Assembly: GCA_903822545.1 (NCBI GenBank)
Contig: CAIJPN010000024.1
Location: 1 to 64,000 of the forward strand
Length of the DNA: 64,000 bases
Reading direction: 5' to 3'
Origin: an uncultured Anaerolineae bacterium
GTDB taxonomy: Bacteria > Chloroflexota > Anaerolineae > Anaerolineales > Villigracilaceae
Shown: one piece after another, positions 15,169 to 26,208 of the stretch
Numbering within the stretch: the first letter of the stretch is position 1
Layout: each line of letters begins with the position of its first letter
The notes under the pieces: generated by a model
What the model saw: the letters and a program-made list of their open reading frames with translations, nothing else
Databases searched by the model: none
Told to the model about the DNA's origin: nothing
Position numbers and translations under genes: made by a program

Positions 15169-15495
15169 TTATTCGCGTGGGGTAAGGATCGAGATCAGGC
15201 GTTCCAGCATCTCGGCGCGGTAATCAATCGCGGATTGAACATTCTGCTGGTGCAGGTCGAACATAACGGTATCGATGACCAGTTCGCCATCCGCGCTTTT
15301 TTTCATCGGGACGATGTTGTCGCTATCGCCATCCAGCTTGACGACGGTGCGGGCGGCCAGTTTTGCGCCATCCAGGGCCGCGCCCATTTCTACATAGTGG
15401 GTTTCGACAGCCATTTCAGAAGCATCTTCGATGTATTTGGCGATCTTTTCAGCCGCAGTCTTGAGGGCTTCTTTCAATTCGGTAGGGGTTGCCAT
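15169..15495 (-). CDS. 108-residue stand-alone copy of the peptidase C-terminal domain
   Basis: This small protein aligns along nearly its whole length with residues 575-683 of the clan CD peptidase two genes upstream. Shared positions include an EDA(S/T)-x2-(L/M)-x-VET segment, VTRVTIDGD versus VVKLDGD, GE(I/L)-x-IDT, LH or HLD, and a final helix (SRAELMKTLLSAI versus YRAEMLERLISIL). Such a shared domain suggests homotypic contact between peptidase and small protein, for example as an adaptor or inhibitor. It has no signal peptide or membrane segment. AAGGAG lies 9 bases before the ATG. It is the last gene of the conflict locus and ends at the terminator at 15111-15153. No named family is recognised. 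Confidence 0.8.
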   Translation of the reverse strand: MATPTELKEALKTAAEKIAKYIEDASEMAVETHYVEMGAALDGAKLAARTVVKLDGDSDNIVPMKKSADGELVIDTVMFDLHQQNVQSAIDYRAEMLERLISILTPRE

Positions 15496-15551
15496 GATTT
15501 ATTTCTCCTTTTGGGTTTTGGTTGAATAAGCGGGGGATTGCTCCCCAGATT

Positions 15552-16400
15552 TTATTGCGAAAGTTCCTGATACTGCTTGACCTGATCCATGATCTGGCGC
15601 ACGTACTTGTATACTACTGGCAGCGCCAGCACCGCGCCGCCGGGGGTAGCCATCAGTGCTGAAAGTTTTCCCGCACCGCCAGCAATGGTCATGACCATTT
15701 GCATTTTCAGCGCCCGGCTATGGGTGGCAAAACGCAGGGTGCGCCGGTGCAGCTCGATCTGTGCTTCTGAGATCGCAGCATCCCAGACGGTGACGGCATC
15801 GCCGCTCCAATCGATGGTCGTGCGGGCCAGGGTTTTGTCTGAGGTGGCAGTCTCGACCCAGGCAAAGTGCAGCACCTCGCGGTTGACTTGCTCCAGCAGG
15901 GCGTTGAATTGGGCCTTGGCTTGCTCCAGCGCGGGGTTGATGGTGTCTTCCATGATGCCAAAATGCACTTCTTCGCTGGCAGCTTTTGGCTGTCCTTTAT
16001 CGGCATCGTTTAACAGGCTGAGCAGGTCGGCTTCGGCGGCATCTTCTTGCGGGGTTTCATCGCCAATGCCAAAGTGGACTTCACCACTGGTAGATTGGGG
16101 GCGTGCCTGGGTGCGAGTAACCAGCGCATCGATGCGGTTGGGAACATCATCCAGCATTTTGGCCGAGGCGGCCATGCGCGCTTCTTGCTGGCGGAAGGCG
16201 GATTCAGCATCGGCGGCGTTGTCGGGGAATTTGATGCGATAGACAGGCGTATCAGGTGGCGGGGCGGATGGTTGTTCGTCGCCAATCCCAAAGTGGACGG
16301 TTTCATCCGCCGGGGCCGGGGATGATGCCCAAAGGCCGAGCGGGTCATCCATCCCCGTGCCGGTAACTTCAAATTTGACGGTGTTTTTTGCGCTGTCCAT
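15552..16400 (-). CDS. 282-residue protein with three HFGI motifs and a hydrophobic C-terminal segment
   Basis: No family recognised. The N-terminal half is acidic, Pro/Ala-rich and probably disordered. It carries three copies of an HFGI motif: ETVHFGIGDEQ (from residue 33), GEVHFGIGDET (from 107) and EEVHFGIMEDT (from 144). A related STDHFGVAEGID lies at residues 57-68 of the neighbouring peptidase. The C-terminal half (about 150-282) is helical and contains a Gly/Ala-rich apolar stretch, MVMTIAGGAGKLSALM then ATPGGAVLALPVVYKYV, that could insert into a membrane. I infer a peptidase substrate or membrane-active executor with recognition motifs in the flexible part. The start lies 14 bases after the peptidase stop, without a clear ribosome site. 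Confidence 0.75.
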   Translation of the reverse strand: MDSAKNTVKFEVTGTGMDDPLGLWASSPAPADETVHFGIGDEQPSAPPPDTPVYRIKFPDNAADAESAFRQQEARMAASAKMLDDVPNRIDALVTRTQARPQSTSGEVHFGIGDETPQEDAAEADLLSLLNDADKGQPKAASEEVHFGIMEDTINPALEQAKAQFNALLEQVNREVLHFAWVETATSDKTLARTTIDWSGDAVTVWDAAISEAQIELHRRTLRFATHSRALKMQMVMTIAGGAGKLSALMATPGGAVLALPVVYKYVRQIMDQVKQYQELSQ

Positions 16401-16414
16401 GCTTTTTCGCGGCG

Positions 16415-18466
16415 TTACTTGAGGCCGGGGATGCTGTTGATGGCCGAGAGCAGGGTTTTCATCAGTTCAGCGCGGCTGGCCTGGGCCTGTTTGACCATAT
16501 CCAGGTGCACCTGCCAGATGGCGGTGTCGATCTCGCCATCTTCGTTTTGCGGGATGCAGACTTTGGTGTCGCCGTCGATGGTGACACGGGTGACGGCGCG
16601 CAGACTGGCGTTGGTGAATTTGCCGCCTTCAAAGCCGACCCCGGTCAGGTCATTGCTGACGTAGGTTTCGACTTCGAGGGTGGTGGCATCTTCGAGGGCT
16701 TTGCTCATGTATGAGCCCAATTTGTCGACAAATTCTTTGAAGACACCGCCGCCTGCGCTGCCTGTTGCCGCCGGGGCAGAACCTTCTCCTGCTGGGGCAG
16801 TTGGGGTGGCTGGAGTGGCCGGGGCTGCTTCTTTTTTGCCGCCGCCGAGCAGATCGAGTACGCTGTAGTTTTCACCGGGGCCGCCAGAAGCTGCTTTGGC
16901 TGCCGGGGTGCGATCGACCACATCGGGCTGGAATCCGGCTGATGCACCGGAAACACTTGCCGGGAACTGGGTCACGACTGAGCCAAGGCTGGCGCGTTCG
17001 GCCTTGGGGGTTTCCTTTTCTTCAACATTCAAGCGCACCGCCGGGTCGCCGATGAAGGCGTAGTTGCGGGCGTCGTTGTTGGATGTCCACATGCCGGCGA
17101 TCTTGATGTCGTCCTGGGTTTCGGGGGTGGTCTGGTCGAGTTCTTCGGTTAGCATGGTGGAGATTTCGGCGTAGCGTTCGTTGAAGTATTCGGTGCCGAC
17201 GCCCGCCGGTTTGCCCTTTAGCAGGGCATCTATGGTGGATTTGAAGGTTTCCGTATCGGCAACTGCGCCATCCCATGCAATGGATGATCCCCAGGCGCGT
17301 TCTACATGCGCAAATACGCCCAGTGCGCCGCCTTTGGGATGCGAGAGCAGGCGCAGTGGCATTTGCGAGATGAAAGCGTAGGGGGCGATGTCTTTTTGAA
17401 CACCGAAGGCCTGGCGGTAGAAGTTATCAGCTTTGGGGATGCCGCCGCCGTAGCAGGCGAAGATGAAGGCAATCATGCCAAAGACATCGGCGTCGGATGC
17501 GATGTCATCTGCCGAGAAGTACAGGCTGTCGGTGATCGGTACGCGCGCCTTGGGGCCGGGCCAATCCTGGCACAGGATGGAGCCGGTGTGGCGCAGCAGG
17601 CGGTTATCGTCCAGCTTGAAGTTCATGCCGTGTGAGGCCGTGAAGAGCAGGGACGGGGTTTCTGCACCACCCATGTAGTTCGCCAGGTTGGCTTTGGTGG
17701 CATTGGCAGGCTCGATTACTTTGGCGTTCCAATCTTTGAACTCGCCCATGTGTTCGGCCAGCGGCAGGATCAGGCTTTTGGAGCTCATCTGGGTGGCTTT
17801 GTCATCGGGGTTGCCAACGCCAAAGAAAGCGGCTTTCTTGGCGCGCGCAACCTTTTTGGTTTCATATTCCACTACGCTTTTGGCATATTGGTAATAATCT
17901 TCGAGCTTGTCAAAGTAGATGCGGCCGACTGCATACTGCACATCGAGCTGGTATTGGAATGAATAAGAGATGGTTTCTGGTGAGCCTACGATCAGGGCAT
18001 AGTACGGGAAAAACTGCGGGTCAGCCGGGCCAGGGCCGCGGCCAAAACGCTTCAGGAAGTCGTTTTTGGTTTCGCCGTTCTTGACACCGCCTTTTTTCTC
18101 ATCTGTGCCGATGACTTCTTTGTAGAAAGTTTCATCGATGGCAGAAGCCTGGGCTTTGCGATGATCCAGCAGCGGTTTAAGGGCTTCTTTGATGCCATCT
18201 ACTGATTTTTGCGGCAAGCCCGCCGGGAAAATTACCGCCCAGCCAGTTTCATCCAATTTGGTGTTGTCAATGCCTTCGGCTACACCAAAATGATCAGTGG
18301 ATGCAGACGATAACTGCTTCTTCATCTTGGCATCGCGCAAGTCTTCAGGCGTAATTTTTTGCCCGCGCGCGACCTTGGCGATCATATCGGTGGTAATGAC
18401 AACATCATCGCCATCAATCGGGCCGCCGGTGGAAGCGTTGACACCGTTTAGATTAAGTTCTGCCAT
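16415..18466 (-). CDS. Clan CD cysteine peptidase (C25/caspase-like) of a conflict system
   Basis: 683 residues from ATG 18466, chosen because AAGGAGA precedes it; an in-frame ATG 18 bases earlier lacks one. The peptidase core holds the histidine in LLFTASHGMNF (His279) and the cysteine in FIFACYGGGIP (Cys338), the usual dyad order for gingipain and caspase folds. Other landmarks are FFPYYALIVGSPETISYSFQ, LDVQYAVGRIYFD, GSILCQDWPGP and the late YAFIGDPAVRLN. A Pro/Ala/Gly-rich linker (about 500-574) leads to a C-terminal domain (575-683) homologous to the stand-alone 108-residue protein. The N-terminal segment contains one HFGV motif (59-62). No secretion signal, so it acts in the cytoplasm. 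Substrate specificity is unknown. Confidence 0.85.
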   Translation of the reverse strand: MAELNLNGVNASTGGPIDGDDVVITTDMIAKVARGQKITPEDLRDAKMKKQLSSASTDHFGVAEGIDNTKLDETGWAVIFPAGLPQKSVDGIKEALKPLLDHRKAQASAIDETFYKEVIGTDEKKGGVKNGETKNDFLKRFGRGPGPADPQFFPYYALIVGSPETISYSFQYQLDVQYAVGRIYFDKLEDYYQYAKSVVEYETKKVARAKKAAFFGVGNPDDKATQMSSKSLILPLAEHMGEFKDWNAKVIEPANATKANLANYMGGAETPSLLFTASHGMNFKLDDNRLLRHTGSILCQDWPGPKARVPITDSLYFSADDIASDADVFGMIAFIFACYGGGIPKADNFYRQAFGVQKDIAPYAFISQMPLRLLSHPKGGALGVFAHVERAWGSSIAWDGAVADTETFKSTIDALLKGKPAGVGTEYFNERYAEISTMLTEELDQTTPETQDDIKIAGMWTSNNDARNYAFIGDPAVRLNVEEKETPKAERASLGSVVTQFPASVSGASAGFQPDVVDRTPAAKAASGGPGENYSVLDLLGGGKKEAAPATPATPTAPAGEGSAPAATGSAGGGVFKEFVDKLGSYMSKALEDATTLEVETYVSNDLTGVGFEGGKFTNASLRAVTRVTIDGDTKVCIPQNEDGEIDTAIWQVHLDMVKQAQASRAELMKTLLSAINSIPGLK

Positions 18467-18672: not shown

Positions 18673-21600
18673 TTATGGAACCCGAGGAACCAGGAAAGTA
18701 ATGAACTGGTCAAAGATGTTGGGTGTGTGGAAGTTTTCACAGGTTTTCGACAGGTATTCGGCGCACTCATCTGGCATCATACTGCGTGGAATATCCGCCA
18801 GGCGCTGGCGGGCCAGGTTTTCCAGATCGGTTGGATCGAGCGTGAAGATGTGTACGGTATGATCCACTGAAGAGCTGGCTACGTGCCTGCCATCCGGGCT
18901 GAATGTAACCTGATTAATGCGGTCAGTGTTGCCATAAAGCGGGACTTTTGCGCCGGTGGTAAATCCGCGGGGATCAGACGAATCTGTTTTTAAGTCGATG
19001 ATGTTCACAAACCCGTCTGCTCCGCCGGTTGCAATCAGGTAACTGTTGGGGCTAAACTTGACATCGAAGATGCTGCCGATGTGATAGCTTCCAAACTTCG
19101 CTGCCACCCGTTTTGTGGCCAAATCATAGATAATCAAATAGCCATCTTCGCTGACCGAGGCCAGGTATTTCATATCGTAGCTAAATGATACGCCCTGGAC
19201 AAAATCCTGATGCTCGTTAAAGGCCATTCCATCAACGATTTTCTCTTCCTTCCAGTCCCAGACAGCAACCGCATAGGGTTTATTGTAATAGGCCACGCCC
19301 ACGTATTTATCGTCAGGGGAAAATGCGATGTAAGTCACTGTGACAGCAGTAATATCCTTGAAATCATACACAGGAGCGCCATCTTTCATCTGCAACGGGC
19401 CTTCTTTCAGGAAATCAAGGCTGGATTTCTGTTCACCAGTGGCAATATCCCACACCCGCACCAGGCCATCGTCGCCACCAGTGGCAGCGATTGACTGGTC
19501 ACGAGTCATGGTCAATCCAAAAATCGCTTTGCCATTGTGCGCTTTGATGGCATCATCTTTCCCAAACGGCTGGCCAAAAATCCGAATCGGCTTCCCGGCA
19601 GTCACATCCCACTGGATGAATCGTCCGTCACGACCGATGGAAAGAATCTCTTTATCCTGGTTGCGCCAGAGAAGCCCCTCTATACCGTACTGGTGGCCAT
19701 CTGTTACCAGTTTGCCAAGCACTTCACCGGTTTTAGCATCCCAGATGGTGATGGCATTTCCCGCCCCGCCAGTGGCGATCCGAGCGCCATCAGAACTATA
19801 AGCCAGGGCATAACTCTTATCGCCGGTGTCCAGCGTCAGGTCTTCGCGCGCGCCGGTGAGCGAAATATCCCAGATGCGCACGGAACTATCCTGTCCAACA
19901 GAAACCAGGTGTTTGCCATCGACGCTTACGGCAATGTCATACACCTGGCTGGTGTGACCCACCAGGCGCATTTTCTCGCGCCCATACAGCGTATCCCACT
20001 CACGGATGGTGCGGTCGGAACTGGCAGAATAGATCGAATTCCCATCTGCGGAGTAGGCCACAGAATAAACCCAGTCAAAATGTCCGGTAATGGTCATTGC
20101 CAGGCTTTCTGAAGCAATATCCCAAACTTTGACAGTGCGATCCGCGCTGGCGCTGGCAATTTTGGTGCCATCCGGGCTGAAAGTCACATCGTTGACGGCT
20201 TTATCATGCTTGTGAGGATCATTGAATCGCACAAGTAATTTGCCGCTCTGGGCATCCCACAACCTGACAAAATTATCTTCCCCGCCGGTTGCAATCAATT
20301 TGTTATCGCGGCTGATTGCCACGCTGTTGACGGTATCTGAACTGAAAAGACCGCACTCCTGAATAGAAGCACAATTGGCTTTGCCCAGGCTCGTTTTCAG
20401 TTCCAACGTGGATGCATCCCACACTTTGGCAGTGTAATCTCCGCCGCCAGTAACAAAGAATGCGCCATCCGGGCTGTAGTTAAGTCCCCATACAACATTA
20501 TCATGCGCCTGGAAGTTGGTAACTTCCTTCCATGTGCTGGTATCGAACACATGAACTTTGCCATCTTCCCCACTCGCGAGTAGCCGCTTGCCATCTGGAG
20601 AAACAGCGCTGCCGGTTACGCCCAGATCATTGGCAGGGTCGGTCTTATACAACTGGATTTCAGCAATCTTTTGGCTTGTTTCCAGGTTCCAGACGCGCAC
20701 ATAACCATCGGTGCCGCCAGATGCCACCCAATCATTGCCTGGCCCATAAACAACGGTGTAAATTTTGTAATCGTGCGCATTATTGATGATGCGCACGATC
20801 CGCATGCCAGGCAGCGCCCGGTGCAGCGCTCGCACATTTTCGGCGGTCAGATCGCCGGTTTTTACTGTGCTATCCAGCGCCAGCATCACCCCTAAGGATG
20901 GGTCACGCTCCAGGCTGCTGACAGATGATGCGGCCAGCTCACGCGCAATCGCCCGGAACTGCGCCACCTGCGCCAGCAGGAAGAAAACCACTGCCACAAT
21001 CGTTGCCACAATCGAAAAAACCAGCATCCAGCGCACTATCAGGTTCATGCGACGTTCGCGAATATCGTTTTGATGGGCTTTGGATGATGCGTTATAAAAA
21101 TCAGTCTCCGCGGCGATCATAATGGTCGCGTTTTGTTTGGCCCATTCCTGCATCTTTAAAAAGTCTGGGCCAATCACCAGCATGCCATCCGGGCGGCCTT
21201 CTTGCTGCCACACATCCGCCTGGCGCTGGAGTGGGCTGAGATTTTCATCAAACCACCTGGTATTATCATCACGAATGGGGGCGATCATGCGGTCATGCGA
21301 CAGTTCGAACCAGGTTGCCCCGCCGCGTTTTTCGGCGCGGATCAGGTAAGCTTTCTCCAGTGCCCAAATGGCGCGGTTGTCCAGGCCATCGCTCTGGCCT
21401 TTACCCATCAACACCTGCCCGCGAATGCCCGCCGGGGTGATGAGTTTGCGGTTGAACCATTCGCGGATTTCGCGCTCTTTAACCCTGGTTTGTCCGGCTA
21501 CAGACGCCACCTGGAGAGAATAGTAATCGCCGAGCGCGGTATTGACATCGCCGAGGCTTTGCACTTCTTCCAGCGTGATGTCATTATCATCGTTTGTGAT

Positions 21601-22473
21601 TTCGCTCCACAGGCGTCGGCAAACCACCTGGAGCTGCACCGGTTCAAGGTGCGGGCCAAGCTCGGGCCGGGTGGAACCATCTGGCTGTTGCACCTGGGTC
21701 AAGCGCAAATCGTCGAGTAGTTTCCGGGCCGCATCATCTTTGAAATCGACGCCGTTATCACGCGCTGGCCCGCGCATCGCTTCCAAGCCGCCTTTCACTT
21801 CGAGCAGGTTCAGACGGTAGCGGTTGGCAAAACGGCTGGGGATGGGCATCACGTACGGGTCGAGCGCCGCCAGGTAATCCTCGCGGATACAGCACATGGA
21901 GAAAATCTGTGGGTCGTTCAGCGCTTCGCCAAGTTGGATGAAAAAGTCTTTCTTAACGGCCTGGTCGGTGGGGTTAAGCGTAAGAATCTCTTCCATCTGA
22001 TCGACGATTAGCATCAGGAACGAGAAATCACTGTAGTTGGGGTTGTTCTGGCGCTCGCGATCACGATAACGGGCCAGGTAGGCTGTCAGGTGAATTGTAT
22101 AAAGCTCGTTAACCGGGAAGCGCAAATTTTCGGGGATACTCTCCTCGAGAGATTCGATCAGGCTGAAAATATAGCGATTAAAGCCAGGCAGTTCTACCGC
22201 TTCATCGGGTGGATCCATGTTGACGCGCATCACCGGCAAGACCTGGTAGCCTTGCTGCTGCAAACCAGGTATTACTGCTGCGTTCACCAATGAACTTTTC
22301 CCAGCCCCGGATGGTGAATGCAGCAGCACAATGCGCTCAGCCATGATCAGGTTAACCAGTTCAAACGTTTCGCGTTCGCGCCCGTAGAGTTTTTCACCCG
22401 TCTTAAAGGAACGCGGCCCGACATAGGGATTTGGGCGAGAAATTATTGTCACATTGGAGTTCGAGTTTGTCAT
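18673..22473 (-). CDS. STAND NTPase (nSTAND1-like) with transmembrane segment and 14-blade WD40 region
   Basis: 1266 residues from the ATG that overlaps the CHAT-SIR2 stop as ATGA; an ATG 18 bases earlier is less likely. The NTPase domain (about 15-400) opens with NPYVGPRSFKTGEKLYGRER, has Walker A in HSPSGAGKSSLV (56-62), Walker B in LMLIVDQMEEIL, and CCIREDYLAAL. After a winged-helix-like part comes one strong transmembrane helix (MLVFSIVATIVAVVFFLLAQ, about 480-505). Fourteen WD40 blades follow, enough for two seven-blade propellers, ending in the common tail RSMMPDECAEYL. No effector domain is fused at the N-terminus, so output probably goes to the CHAT-SIR2 and peptidase partners. The propellers are the likely ligand sensor. 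Its position in the operon supports a conflict role. Confidence 0.92.
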   Translation of the reverse strand: MTNSNSNVTIISRPNPYVGPRSFKTGEKLYGRERETFELVNLIMAERIVLLHSPSGAGKSSLVNAAVIPGLQQQGYQVLPVMRVNMDPPDEAVELPGFNRYIFSLIESLEESIPENLRFPVNELYTIHLTAYLARYRDRERQNNPNYSDFSFLMLIVDQMEEILTLNPTDQAVKKDFFIQLGEALNDPQIFSMCCIREDYLAALDPYVMPIPSRFANRYRLNLLEVKGGLEAMRGPARDNGVDFKDDAARKLLDDLRLTQVQQPDGSTRPELGPHLEPVQLQVVCRRLWSEITNDDNDITLEEVQSLGDVNTALGDYYSLQVASVAGQTRVKEREIREWFNRKLITPAGIRGQVLMGKGQSDGLDNRAIWALEKAYLIRAEKRGGATWFELSHDRMIAPIRDDNTRWFDENLSPLQRQADVWQQEGRPDGMLVIGPDFLKMQEWAKQNATIMIAAETDFYNASSKAHQNDIRERRMNLIVRWMLVFSIVATIVAVVFFLLAQVAQFRAIARELAASSVSSLERDPSLGVMLALDSTVKTGDLTAENVRALHRALPGMRIVRIINNAHDYKIYTVVYGPGNDWVASGGTDGYVRVWNLETSQKIAEIQLYKTDPANDLGVTGSAVSPDGKRLLASGEDGKVHVFDTSTWKEVTNFQAHDNVVWGLNYSPDGAFFVTGGGDYTAKVWDASTLELKTSLGKANCASIQECGLFSSDTVNSVAISRDNKLIATGGEDNFVRLWDAQSGKLLVRFNDPHKHDKAVNDVTFSPDGTKIASASADRTVKVWDIASESLAMTITGHFDWVYSVAYSADGNSIYSASSDRTIREWDTLYGREKMRLVGHTSQVYDIAVSVDGKHLVSVGQDSSVRIWDISLTGAREDLTLDTGDKSYALAYSSDGARIATGGAGNAITIWDAKTGEVLGKLVTDGHQYGIEGLLWRNQDKEILSIGRDGRFIQWDVTAGKPIRIFGQPFGKDDAIKAHNGKAIFGLTMTRDQSIAATGGDDGLVRVWDIATGEQKSSLDFLKEGPLQMKDGAPVYDFKDITAVTVTYIAFSPDDKYVGVAYYNKPYAVAVWDWKEEKIVDGMAFNEHQDFVQGVSFSYDMKYLASVSEDGYLIIYDLATKRVAAKFGSYHIGSIFDVKFSPNSYLIATGGADGFVNIIDLKTDSSDPRGFTTGAKVPLYGNTDRINQVTFSPDGRHVASSSVDHTVHIFTLDPTDLENLARQRLADIPRSMMPDECAEYLSKTCENFHTPNIFDQFITFLVPRVP

Positions 22474-24629
22474 TTTGCCACCTTTGCCCATTCGGCGCTC
22501 AGGTCTTTCAGGAAGTCGGCTGAATCTCCCCAGTATATTTCGAATTTGTCAGCGCCGAAATACTTTTCCAGGTATTTTCGGGCGCGTTCCGGCTGCATGG
22601 CGCTCTGCTCATCAAGAGCAAGCTGGATGCCAAAGCGCGGGAAAGCCGGCGGACGTTTGCGCACATCTTCATCGATCATGGCGCGGTAAAAAACGCGGAA
22701 CGACCAGTCATTCATTGAAAACCCGGTCAGCAGCAGCGCGCCATTGGCAACCGCTGCACGAACACGCGCCGGGATGAGCTGGTAGAGTTTGGCCTTGCCG
22801 CTGATAAAGTCGAAATAATCATCCTGGGTCAGCACCAGCGATTCGGGCACATCCCAGCGCCCGAACAGGTGGTAGACCATTGGTTTGTCAGCAGTCGGCA
22901 TGGTGTCTGCGCCAACCATGGCGGCTTCTTTGAGCGACTCTTTCCACGGGCAAATGACCGAAACCGGCTGTTTGCCCTCGGCCTTGAGCGCATCTTCCAT
23001 AATAGTATCGAAATTGGTGGAAATATAAATCTGGAGCGGCAGTTTGGCCAGAATGCGATGCTGCTCATTGGGGTCTTTGGTGCGCAAGTGCTGGCCCACT
23101 TTGATGAGCATCTGATCCACTGCAGATATCTTTGGCGCACCACCAGCCGCTGCTGGGTCTGCGAACGGGTCGGCAAATGGGTCCGCGAATGGGTCGGCGG
23201 CTGCGCTTGCGCCGCCCCCCTTCAGGTCATCCGGCAGGATGCTGCCATAGCGCTCGACCAGTTGTTTCTGGATGTAGGTTTCCAGCGTTTCATAGGGGAA
23301 GCGCGAAGTCTGCTGCACGCTCAGGTATTGCGCCACTTGTGGCAGCATGTTCTTCTGGTGTGGCGAAAGCGGGTAAGCGTATTCTTCGGCCCACTTGTTG
23401 GCGATCTCGCCAAATGAACCATAATAAGCATTCAGCAGGCCTGGCCCAATCACCGGTACTACCGCCTGGCGTTGGACGGCATTCAGCAAAGCCGGCCACT
23501 TCTCAAAACCGCCGCCTTCTGCGCCAAAACCGGGTACATACCAGATTTTGCCACTTTTCAGGCGCATAAACAGCACCGGCATCCAGAAATCGTGAGCAGT
23601 GCGCACCGTGCCGCGCGAAACCGCCAGGGCGCGATCGATCTGCCCGTCTTTTTGCAGTTCGCCGAAGAAGACCGGCATGAATTTTTTGACGCTGTCCATG
23701 CTGATGTTCCCCTGCATGGCGATCACCGCCGGGATTCCGCCCTGGGCCAGTTGTGGCCCGAACGCCTGGAGCGCGTTGCCGTTCCCTTTTCCGGCGCTCT
23801 GGCAGGAGGCCAGCACCACCAATCGGGGAGGGTTCATCATCTCGCGGATGCGTGTGACTACCTGGCTAGCCGGGGTGCGGGCGCTTTTGCCCTCCTCGTC
23901 TTGCAGCCAGATGACGGCTTCGCCGGTGGCAACCGTTCCATGTGCAGCCAGGTACAGGATGTCATAGCCATCGCGCAGGCGCGCAGCCAGGTTGTTTAGT
24001 GTGGCTTTTTCATCGGGTTTGGCTGGCAGGTCGGTGATGGGGATGTTGCCCAGGGCTTCGTGGGCGCGTGCCATTTCACCGGCCACATCCACCGCTGCAA
24101 GTTTGTAGCTGGCCAAATCGGATGGGTTGGAGATAAAGACCAGGGCCTTAAGATCACCTTTGGGGCGCAATTTCACCGGCCGCCAGTCGTTGCTGCTCAG
24201 GTAGCGCGAGAAGAGCACATTTTCGCTGGTGGTGAGTTGCGATTTATCCTGCGGGTCGCGCAGGGCTTCCCAGTAAAGCGAGTTCAGTTCTCCGGCGCTG
24301 GGGCCAACCAGCAGGCGCACACGCAAGGGAGCTTGCAGGCTTTGGGCAGTGGCGCGGGCCTGGGCCCAGGCAGCCAGCACATTCGGGTCGGCAAATAGGG
24401 ATTTTGCCAGCTCATCGCCATATTCATCCGGCGTGATGATCAAATCTTGCAACGTCACCAGGTCAATCTGCGCGGTGAGTGACTGCCCCTGTCCAAGACG
24501 AATATCTGCGTCGCTATTGGGCTGAGTCAGCCGCATTTCGATGTTGTATGTATTGCCATCTCTACGATGCAAACTTATTTCCAGGTCGGCAAAATCGGTC
24601 ACGGGATTCTCTCCGGGATAATATGGCAT
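22470..24629 (-). CDS. CHAT peptidase-SIR2 fusion protein
   Basis: 719 residues. The CHAT domain (about 100-360) has the His in LYLAAHGTVATGE (His230) and the Cys in VVLASCQSAGKG (Cys276), then GIPAVIAMQG. It is joined to a SIR2-like domain (about 382-710): VVPVIGPGLLNAYYG, IYISTNFDTIMEDAL, VYHLFGRWDVPESLVLTQDD and ALLLTGFSMNDWSFRV. SIR2 effectors in phage defence degrade NAD+; CHAT domains are caspase-like proteases. Between the SIR2 motifs lies a tandem repeat of the tetrapeptide DPFA (about 479-492). The start codon lies in the 3' arm of a 13-base hairpin. Its stop overlaps the STAND start, so the two are translationally coupled. I infer a two-output effector under STAND control. Confidence 0.92.
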   Translation of the reverse strand: MPYYPGENPVTDFADLEISLHRRDGNTYNIEMRLTQPNSDADIRLGQGQSLTAQIDLVTLQDLIITPDEYGDELAKSLFADPNVLAAWAQARATAQSLQAPLRVRLLVGPSAGELNSLYWEALRDPQDKSQLTTSENVLFSRYLSSNDWRPVKLRPKGDLKALVFISNPSDLASYKLAAVDVAGEMARAHEALGNIPITDLPAKPDEKATLNNLAARLRDGYDILYLAAHGTVATGEAVIWLQDEEGKSARTPASQVVTRIREMMNPPRLVVLASCQSAGKGNGNALQAFGPQLAQGGIPAVIAMQGNISMDSVKKFMPVFFGELQKDGQIDRALAVSRGTVRTAHDFWMPVLFMRLKSGKIWYVPGFGAEGGGFEKWPALLNAVQRQAVVPVIGPGLLNAYYGSFGEIANKWAEEYAYPLSPHQKNMLPQVAQYLSVQQTSRFPYETLETYIQKQLVERYGSILPDDLKGGGASAAADPFADPFADPFADPAAAGGAPKISAVDQMLIKVGQHLRTKDPNEQHRILAKLPLQIYISTNFDTIMEDALKAEGKQPVSVICPWKESLKEAAMVGADTMPTADKPMVYHLFGRWDVPESLVLTQDDYFDFISGKAKLYQLIPARVRAAVANGALLLTGFSMNDWSFRVFYRAMIDEDVRKRPPAFPRFGIQLALDEQSAMQPERARKYLEKYFGADKFEIYWGDSADFLKDLSAEWAKVAK

Positions 24630-24679: not shown

Positions 24680-26110
24680 TTAGCAATCGTCGGGGCTGAC
24701 CTGCGGAACCGGGTCTGCCGGGCGTTCTTTTACCAGCCAGGCAGCCACATAACCTTCGTTGTCCTTCAGGTCGCGGACTTTGATCCATTCGCCGCTCTTG
24801 CCGATTTTGCTGGCCGCCACATCTTCGGGTTCGATGGCGATCAGTTCGGAATCTTTGGGCAGGCGCTGGATGAGCGTATCTTTGGAGATGTAAGCCTGCG
24901 AACGGAAGGCCACGTTATCTTCCACGGTGCGCAGGATGACCGGCAGCACTTCGCCAACCGAGAAGTTGGGGCCGGATGTCTGGCGCTGGGCCTCGGGGCC
25001 AAATGCGCCCAGGCTGACGATGGTCACGTACCAGGCAGCCACCACGCCCTGTTTGCCTTCCACGTCTGACACTTTGAGCCACTCGAAGTTGACACCGACT
25101 TTGCGCTTGACTTCGGATGGGGCTTCGAGCACTTTGAGTTCGGTGCCGATCGGGTAAATCTTCATGATGGTGGCCTCGGTGTTATCGGGGCGTGAGCGCA
25201 GTTTGAGCGCATCGACGGTGGTCTTGACAACCGGGGCATCTTTTGGAACAGGCACAGCCGCCGGGGGAGTGCCCGGAGCGGGAGCGGCGGTATTTTTGGA
25301 TTTGGAAATCAGCCATCCGGCGGTGTAGCCTTCGGTGCCATCGGGGGCTTTAACGGGAATCCACTGGTTCTGGGTACCCACTTTGGGGCCGGCAGTGGCA
25401 TCTGCTTCGAGGACTTTGAATTCGGTGTTAACGGGGAATCGTTTGAGCAGGGTGAAATCCGTCACCATCGGTTGGGAGCGCAGGGCCAGGTCATCCGCGG
25501 TGGCATAGACCGGGAATGATGCGTATACGCCCTTATCCAGCTTGGGTGGGGTGGGCGGGTCGATCTTCATCGCGCCGCGTGTAAAGAAGCAGCCGGTGAT
25601 GATGCGTGAGGGGTCTTTGCTGCCCGCTAACTGGGCGTATTTGGATGTGCTGAGTTTGATCTGCCCGTTCGTAACGGGGAAGGGATAGGGATCGTAAACG
25701 AGGTAATCGTCGCCTTCTTTAGCGTAGGCAACCATATAGTGGGTCTGAACACCCGCGGAAGGCGACCAGTCAGCTTCGATGATGACCGGGCGGCCCTGGG
25801 CTAGGGACGCATCGATTTCCGCAAGGGGGGCGGGCGCGCCAGCGCACTGGCGATAATCCACGCTCATGCCAGGGACGATGCTGCCGATGCACCAGCCGAT
25901 CAGGTAGGCTGTGCCAGCCTGAAAGCCATTGACAGCTTTGAGTTTCTCGTTGAGTTGCTCAGGGGTTAGATCGGGTGCGCCATAGTGCGTGGCGCACATG
26001 GTAATGCTGGTGAGCAAGCACCCATAGCCGCCAATCGTTGACGACTTATCGAAACCCAGAAGTTTGCTTTTCCAGGCTGGGTCGGTCTGTGAAAACTGCT
26101 TGATGGTCAT
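24680..26110 (-). CDS. C39-like cysteine peptidase with three SH3-type domains
   Basis: 476 residues from ATG 26110, preceded by GGAGG; an upstream in-frame ATG at 26158 has no ribosome site. The papain-like C39_2 domain (1-200) shows Cys31 in GGYGCLLTSITMCATHYGA, His124 in GVQTHYMVAYAKEGDDYLVY and Asp140 in YDPYPFPV. Three bacterial SH3-like repeats follow (about 205-285, 295-370 and 390-470), each with LALRSQP, LKLRSRP or VAFRSQA and a final GY(T/V)A-type strand. There is no signal peptide, although SH3b domains usually bind cell wall; an intracellular role is therefore possible. It is the first gene of the conflict operon, with its own promoter, and lies 50 bases before the CHAT-SIR2 gene. 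Confidence 0.85.
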   Translation of the reverse strand: MTIKQFSQTDPAWKSKLLGFDKSSTIGGYGCLLTSITMCATHYGAPDLTPEQLNEKLKAVNGFQAGTAYLIGWCIGSIVPGMSVDYRQCAGAPAPLAEIDASLAQGRPVIIEADWSPSAGVQTHYMVAYAKEGDDYLVYDPYPFPVTNGQIKLSTSKYAQLAGSKDPSRIITGCFFTRGAMKIDPPTPPKLDKGVYASFPVYATADDLALRSQPMVTDFTLLKRFPVNTEFKVLEADATAGPKVGTQNQWIPVKAPDGTEGYTAGWLISKSKNTAAPAPGTPPAAVPVPKDAPVVKTTVDALKLRSRPDNTEATIMKIYPIGTELKVLEAPSEVKRKVGVNFEWLKVSDVEGKQGVVAAWYVTIVSLGAFGPEAQRQTSGPNFSVGEVLPVILRTVEDNVAFRSQAYISKDTLIQRLPKDSELIAIEPEDVAASKIGKSGEWIKVRDLKDNEGYVAAWLVKERPADPVPQVSPDDC

Positions 26111-26146
26111 ATTTTGTCCTCCGGGGGAATTTGAAAGGCTTGAAAA

Positions 26147-26208
26147 ATTATACAACACTTCATTGCAGATTCATAACAATGCTATCCGAATGTATTAATA
26201 GGATAGCA
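26147..26208 (-). promoter_or_regulatory. Promoter and inverted repeat before the conflict operon
   Basis: On the minus strand a consensus -10 TATAAT lies at 26152-26147, 37 bases before the ATG. The -35 is poor (TATGAA at 17 bases). Just upstream is an 8-base perfect inverted repeat, TGCTATCC (26180-26187) and GGATAGCA (26201-26208), 13 bases apart. A weak -35 with an adjacent palindrome suggests regulation by a DNA-binding protein that is not encoded next door. Confidence 0.5.

Follow-up and report, generated by a model that had tools for sequence, protein, structure and literature searches.

Why does a clan CD peptidase end in a domain that reappears, two genes downstream, as a protein of its own? 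The question arises in a stretch of 64,000 nucleotides, here called the window, from an uncultured Anaerolineae bacterium of the Chloroflexota (GenBank assembly GCA_903822545.1, contig CAIJPN010000024.1, positions 1 to 64,000). Its minus strand encodes, in succession, a C25-like peptidase, a protein that we refer to as MID and a small protein of 108 residues. The original prediction held that the small protein duplicates the C-terminal domain (tail) of the peptidase, and that this domain may be one of the effector-associated domains (EADs), which join partners by like-with-like contact, with the small protein as an adaptor or inhibitor. Three adjacent genes turned out to be concerned, with the following features.

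16415..18466, minus strand: C25-like (clan CD) peptidase, 683 amino acids (PF01364; invariant H and C in the family alignment)
16418..16741, minus strand: C-terminal tail domain of the peptidase, about residues 576-683 (homology to the small protein; a gene of its own at two other loci, L148 and L150)
15552..16400, minus strand: MID, 282 amino acids, with a linker-rich N-terminal part, a domain copy and a C-terminal hydrophobic helix (MID-only profile; AlphaFold2; 38-sequence alignment)
15660..15935, minus strand: domain copy in MID, about residues 156-247 (MID-only profile; elements ordered as in the small-protein model)
15555..15659, minus strand: C-terminal segment of MID, residues 248-282, with conserved PGGA-x-LALPAxW/Y-K-Y-V (hydropathy, alignment)
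15169..15495, minus strand: small stand-alone protein, 108 amino acids, the domain alone (homology to the peptidase tail; AlphaFold2 model)

Homology and predicted fold of the domain copies

In a single BLASTP comparison, the tail (about residues 576-677) and the small protein (residues 7-105) aligned end to end in one register, with 32% identity and an E value of 2e-11. Comparison of the two family profiles gave a probability of 98%, a P value of 8e-14 and a score of 80, while the best of 300 column-shuffled controls reached 24. The VET block, the (L/I)DGD turn, the ID/D position and the final helix were kept in the tail and small families across genomes, and T32, H82 and R93 (small-protein numbering) were invariant over 60 diverse copies of the domain. 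Thus, the likeness in ordered blocks described in the original prediction reflects real homology, and the profile-profile check that it had proposed was significant.

The notion of a duplication was correct for the tail and the small protein and incomplete in one respect, as a third copy, in MID, had been overlooked. A profile built from 58 MID relatives, including neither small proteins nor peptidases, retrieved small proteins as its top non-self open reading frames, with E values down to 8e-10 over the full domain. Comparison of the small families by hhalign gave a modest score, based on few sequences, between MID and the small protein (27.5; best shuffle 19.1) and a weak one between MID and the peptidase tail (21.9; best shuffle 19.5, reversed control 21.5). 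Because the latter was weak, we rested the homology of MID on the larger MID-only profile; an early iterated search that mixed the three families was excluded as circular. On this sequence evidence, the homology of all three copies is nearly certain, and the MID copy is more divergent than the other two.

The domain itself has no name. A search of 60 members against Pfam at an E value of 0.1 yielded no family and 20 scattered chance names, a sequence-profile search of the PDB returned no credible match for either the domain or MID, and phage records contained nothing matching the tail domain. The long N termini of some small open reading frames (L087, L103, and L141) look like start-codon artefacts.

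AlphaFold2 modeled the small protein, on 60 domain sequences, as a compact α+β unit with a mean pLDDT (predicted local distance difference test) of 93.2, comprising a helix at residues 4-24, strands at 27-34, 45-53, 58-61/64-66, and 72-74, and a helix at 76-104. The model of MID, on 38 sequences, reached a pLDDT of 86.5 and placed a helix at 156-177, strands at 180-186, 189-196, and 202-206, and a helix at 212-247, followed by a further helix at 255-281. Modeled separately, the two proteins have a common predicted order of elements: a helix, a three-stranded meander, and a long helix. The same fold is expected for the peptidase tail from its homology and its place in the modeled alignment. Foldseek found nothing under an E value of 0.001 in the PDB. 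A second structural comparison ranked three YbaB chains first for the small protein, at weak scores (Z 5.3, 5.1, and 4.8; root-mean-square deviation 5.5-6.3), and the same three chains matched the MID model with Z of 2.5-2.8, over a region that begins at residue 153-155 and extends to 238-267. Homology to YbaB at the sequence level was rejected, as hhalign against 31 YbaB sequences aligned 18 columns with a probability of 1; PF02575 (YbaB) matched none of the 60 domain members. The models therefore suggest a YbaB-like arrangement rather than membership of the YbaB family.

MID differs from the other copies at its end. Its hydrophobicity peaks at about residues 246-264, with a maximal 19-residue hydropathy of 1.58, and the median C-terminal hydropathy was 1.61 over 45 MIDs compared to 0.86-0.96 in the other two copies. 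Among the three, the conserved hydrophobic end is restricted to MID, which, given this end, could be a released component.

Distribution of the trio and kinship of its copies

A genome scan provided 51 loci with a tailed C25-like peptidase, 47 of which had enough downstream sequence for counting; some loci were cut by contig ends. MID followed the peptidase in 44 of the 47, and both MID and a stand-alone copy did so in 35; at L103, which is among the three loci that deviate, a MID lies upstream. The trio occurred in at least four phyla, with loci in Chloroflexota, Acidobacteriota, Myxococcota, Desulfobacterota, and two metagenome-assembled genomes labeled cyanobacterial. The distribution of the domain is rare and patchy: it was found in 18/150 genomes near the species of the window and 18/400 of its phylum, in 3/189 genomes of the phylum of Plesiocystis, 2/198 of the Desulfobacterota sample, 2/146 of the phylum to which L095 belongs, and 1/199 of the Acidobacteriota sample. 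Genomes rarely held more than one domain locus, and many Nostoc-type peptidases lacked the domain.

Elsewhere, the domain is attached to other enzymes. At two loci (L129 7038-7991 and L130 2912-3919), a GH108 lysozyme (PF05838, 1.2e-26) with a PG_binding_3 domain and a terminal tail domain is encoded directly downstream of the peptidase. A third protein (L144 9980-12625) is a C25-like peptidase–TIR fusion that ends in a weak, distant copy, detected by the MID profile at an E value of 2e-5 and by the domain profile at 3e-4, and at L148 and L150, the peptidase tail is encoded as its own gene. As facts of sequence, the conserved trio and the enzyme fusions are certain. Two further loci were observed on the side: L154 (9986-13207) encodes a C25-like peptidase fused to CHAT and an AAA_35 domain, and L242 (8990-10622; Myxococcota) has consecutive tail-like, MID, and small open reading frames, with no C25 peptidase found within the 19 kb read.

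As characterized by Kaur et al. (2020, PMC7159879), an EAD is present on the core component of a system and again on its effectors, lacks enzymatic features, and shows the closest kinship between copies in adjacent genes. The domain has two of these traits. Terminal copies sit on effector or signaling enzymes, namely, the C25 peptidase, the GH108 lysozyme, and the C25-TIR protein, and the domain is small (about 100 residues) and matches no catalytic family. No copy was found on a core component: searched with the domain and MID-only profiles and with filters off, 53 STAND-like, 40 CHAT-like, and 19 C39-SH3 proteins gave a best E value of 0.19. The search of other STAND and peptidase genes advocated in the original prediction extended the domain to peptidase tails, lysozyme, and C25-TIR, but to none of the 53 STAND-like proteins.

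Kinship between adjacent genes was in the main also missing. For 71 of 72 tail or small copies, the nearest relative was of the same type and came from another locus. A tree of 133 copies required 5 changes of type label, with a minimum of 3 and a mean of 63.9 after shuffling; it was built on few columns, its forks were poorly supported, and single clades of tails or of small proteins were not rejected. Identity between tail and small protein was 28% within a locus and 27% between loci. The sole EAD-like case was that of the Desulfobacterota lysozymes, whose copies lie at a short tree distance (0.5) from the tails of the peptidases encoded alongside them. The copies represent three old, separate lineages, one for each type, which are not matched operon by operon.

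Consequently, the proposed EAD membership holds as far as an unnamed, small, non-enzymatic domain on several enzymes is concerned and fails on the lack of a STAND or CHAT core copy and on the sorting by type. As the copies group by type and none was found on the core, the domain is better explained by a hetero-complex with fixed partners than by homotypic, like-with-like contact. The view of the domain as an effector tail is supported by the enzymes that carry it.

The gene row and a recurring linker motif

In the window, the trio closes a row of six consecutive minus-strand genes, in the order C39-SH3, CHAT-SIR2, nSTAND1-WD40, C25-like peptidase, MID, and small protein, which was found again in relatives within the same family. 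The three genes ahead of the peptidase are listed here.

24680..26158, minus strand: C39-like peptidase with three bacterial SH3 domains (PF13529, 4e-7; PF08239, 4e-14)
22470..24629, minus strand: CHAT-SIR2 protein, 719 amino acids, without a domain copy (PF12770, 5e-29; PF13289, 1e-21)
18673..22491, minus strand: nSTAND1 NTPase (nucleoside triphosphatase) with WD40 repeats, 1272 amino acids, without a domain copy (PF20703, 6e-28; PF00400; GAGKS at 62, LIVDQ at 161)

The assignment of the trio's peptidase to C25 and clan CD is backed by two catalytic-type motifs, TASHG with its His at position 279 and FACYG with its Cys at 338, both invariant across the family alignment and in keeping with the clan CD pattern of HG behind a hydrophobic strand and AC behind the following one, together with a PF01364 match at an E value of 4.8e-5. 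The score of this match was 23.2 bits against a curated cutoff of 23, while relatives reached 40 bits, and no other Pfam signal was present on the peptidase. The CHAT-SIR2 protein retains the His and Cys motifs of CHAT and the N and H of SIR2, and Walker A is present in the nSTAND1 NTPase. The linker joining CHAT and SIR2 contains a DPFADPFADPFADP repeat (window about 23180-23220). When the six proteins were compared with Pfam, NCBIfam, and PADLOC, the small protein and MID had no match beyond chance. In the literature, we found no paper on the combination of C25, MID, and the small domain, nor on CHAT-SIR2 with nSTAND1-WD40.

A short motif, [SNHDTE][FY][GAS][hydrophobic]x[DE], or more narrowly [SND][FY]G[IVL]x[DE], recurs in disordered linkers of MID, the C25-like peptidase, and the C39-SH3 protein. 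Within the window, it stands at five sites.

16853..16870, minus strand: NYSVLD, peptidase, between the catalytic part and the tail (sequence)
16278..16295, minus strand: HFGIGD, first motif of MID (low-confidence linker in the model)
16059..16076, minus strand: HFGIGD, second motif of MID (linker in the model)
15948..15965, minus strand: HFGIME, third motif of MID, just before the domain (linker in the model)
24950..24967, minus strand: NFSVGE, C39-SH3 protein (sequence)

Counts were 27 in 46 peptidase linkers (0.6 expected) and 20 in 45 N-terminal parts of MID (1.4 expected); the pattern was picked after the sequences had been seen, which makes the enrichment somewhat flattering, but the excess over expectation is still large. 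The catalytic part, used as a control, was less enriched (11 versus 5.2 expected), and the motif was absent from 33 small proteins. In the lysozyme protein of L129 and L130, a DFGLID lies just ahead of the domain. The motif may be a docking site or a cleavage site.

A proposed hetero-oligomer and its rivals

The explanation that we favor, at a probability of roughly one half, is that the tail, the MID domain, and the small protein are three specialized paralogues of an unnamed helix–β(3)–helix domain and together make up a hetero-oligomer in which the C25-like protease is held. This heteromeric reading draws its support from the homology of the copies, the conservation of the trio, the fusions to enzymes, and the age and separateness of the lineages; three long-separate versions side by side are the expected trace of a hetero-oligomer with fixed places. 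Most likely, the assembly is regulated and in a few lineages also holds a lysozyme or TIR enzyme. Solved YbaB/EbfC members are dimers, and the domains would bind across types, perhaps by way of their sheets, like the YbaB dimer. MID would serve as scaffold or substrate, with a motif in its disordered linkers that a partner would read or a protease would cut; most likely, the motif would be recognized by one common partner, and the small protein would complete or cap the complex. Where present, nSTAND1-WD40 and CHAT-SIR2 may sense a trigger and activate the complex in an abortive, immune-like response. An immune role is plausible, judged only by this company.

Several observations weigh against this explanation. 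A stand-alone copy was undetected in about a quarter of the loci, and the small type can exist without a tail partner, as three Chloroflexota genomes (L074 395-745, L075 7951-8331, and L076 235-576) have a small protein and no detected tail. CHAT or STAND relatives were near only 20 of the 47 loci, so that the immune-like setting is not constant; because of this count, we regard STAND and CHAT as probable regulators in some operons and not as an essential part of the trio. The distance matrices of tail and small protein correlate (r 0.78), but such a correlation is expected from common inheritance alone. The similarity to YbaB is slight (Z 5.3, root-mean-square deviation 6.3) and lacks profile support, and the C25 score of the peptidase sits at the Pfam cutoff. 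In all three genomes with an isolated small-protein gene, a ChlI/ChlD-like AAA-VWA gene lay in convergent orientation to it.

Classical EAD behavior, with homotypic binding and interchangeable copies that serve as tags for docking effectors on a STAND core, is unlikely. The small, terminal, non-enzymatic nature of the domain, its recurrence on several enzymes and in adjacent genes, and the lysozyme copies near tails of the same operon would all agree with it, but the STAND, CHAT, and C39-SH3 proteins lack a copy, the copies group by type rather than by locus, and more than one locus per genome is rare. It is decidedly improbable that the small protein is an inhibitor that, until removed by a trigger, masks the peptidase tail or competes for it with MID. 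Many protease inhibitors are encoded downstream of their protease, as is the small gene here, whose product has the fold of the tail and partly the same conserved residues; no evidence specific to inhibition was found, however, and the quarter of peptidase loci without a detected stand-alone copy still keep the peptidase H and C. The structural matches would also allow a YbaB/EbfC-like DNA-binding module that brings the protease to DNA, given that the three best for the small protein recurred for the MID domain. These scores are within the range of common arrangements, neither profile-profile comparison nor the 60-member Pfam search gave a YbaB signal, and this role appears very improbable.

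MID might instead act as effector itself. Cleavage of its motif-bearing linkers by the C25 or CHAT protease would release the C-terminal domain with its hydrophobic helix to act on membranes, much like a protease-activated pore former. This scenario, too, is decidedly improbable. MID is the sole copy type with a conserved hydrophobic C-terminal segment, close to the threshold of a membrane helix, and its repeated-motif linkers fall in low-confidence regions of the model; on the other hand, the hydropathy is borderline (1.58 here; at least 1.6 in 23 of 45 MIDs), the helix retains charged residues, and the motif is also found in the linker of the peptidase itself and in C39-SH3, which fits docking equally well. 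A combined version is unlikely: an adaptor complex of three paralogues, not described before and not covered by the EAD scheme, in which every partner retains a version of the common fold, a linker motif docks enzymes, and MID is freed by the caspase-fold proteases of the operon as a membrane-acting effector. If true, it would amount to a modular, protease-based switch that different lineages equip with lysozyme or TIR enzymes.

Returning to the favored hetero-oligomer of three paralogues, its parts resemble several known systems. EAD1-10 and bDLD (PMC7159879; 2021, PMC8195603) are likewise small, non-enzymatic, terminal domains that peptidases, lysozymes, TIR-bearing proteins, and stand-alone proteins have in common, frequently within a single operon, and EAD4, EAD5, and EAD10 have been described as α+β (Kaur et al., PMC7159879; PMC8195603), like the present domain. 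Unlike EADs, the latter is off the NTPase core, forms three type-specific lineages in a fixed gene order, and has no Pfam match. Trypco1 and Trypco2 (PMC7159879) are also small domain proteins encoded beside a signaling peptidase, but here, the partner is C25-like rather than trypsin-like, the domain is also fused to the peptidase, and it matches no Pfam family. With YbaB/EbfC (PF02575), the modeled domain would share the helix–β(3)–helix arrangement, without a detectable sequence relation and in another genomic setting. Craspase (CHAT) and the nuclease-protease pairs (PMC12799240) similarly place a caspase-fold or other protease beside a possible substrate or effector; the present locus has no nuclease or CRISPR part, and MID is a candidate substrate. 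The SIR2 part of CHAT-SIR2 matches the Thoeris ThsA models of PADLOC (2e-14), whereas CHAT-SIR2 with nSTAND1-WD40 matched no PADLOC system and is tied to the trio by neighborhood only.

Together, these data define an unnamed domain family of more than 80 members and a conserved trio around a gingipain-fold protease. The hosts include filamentous bacteria in which caspase-like systems are suspected of driving cell death, and the lysozyme fusion suggests a lytic output. Domains of this kind are usually assumed to act as homotypic tags; the sorting of the copies by type offers a clear alternative that can be tested.

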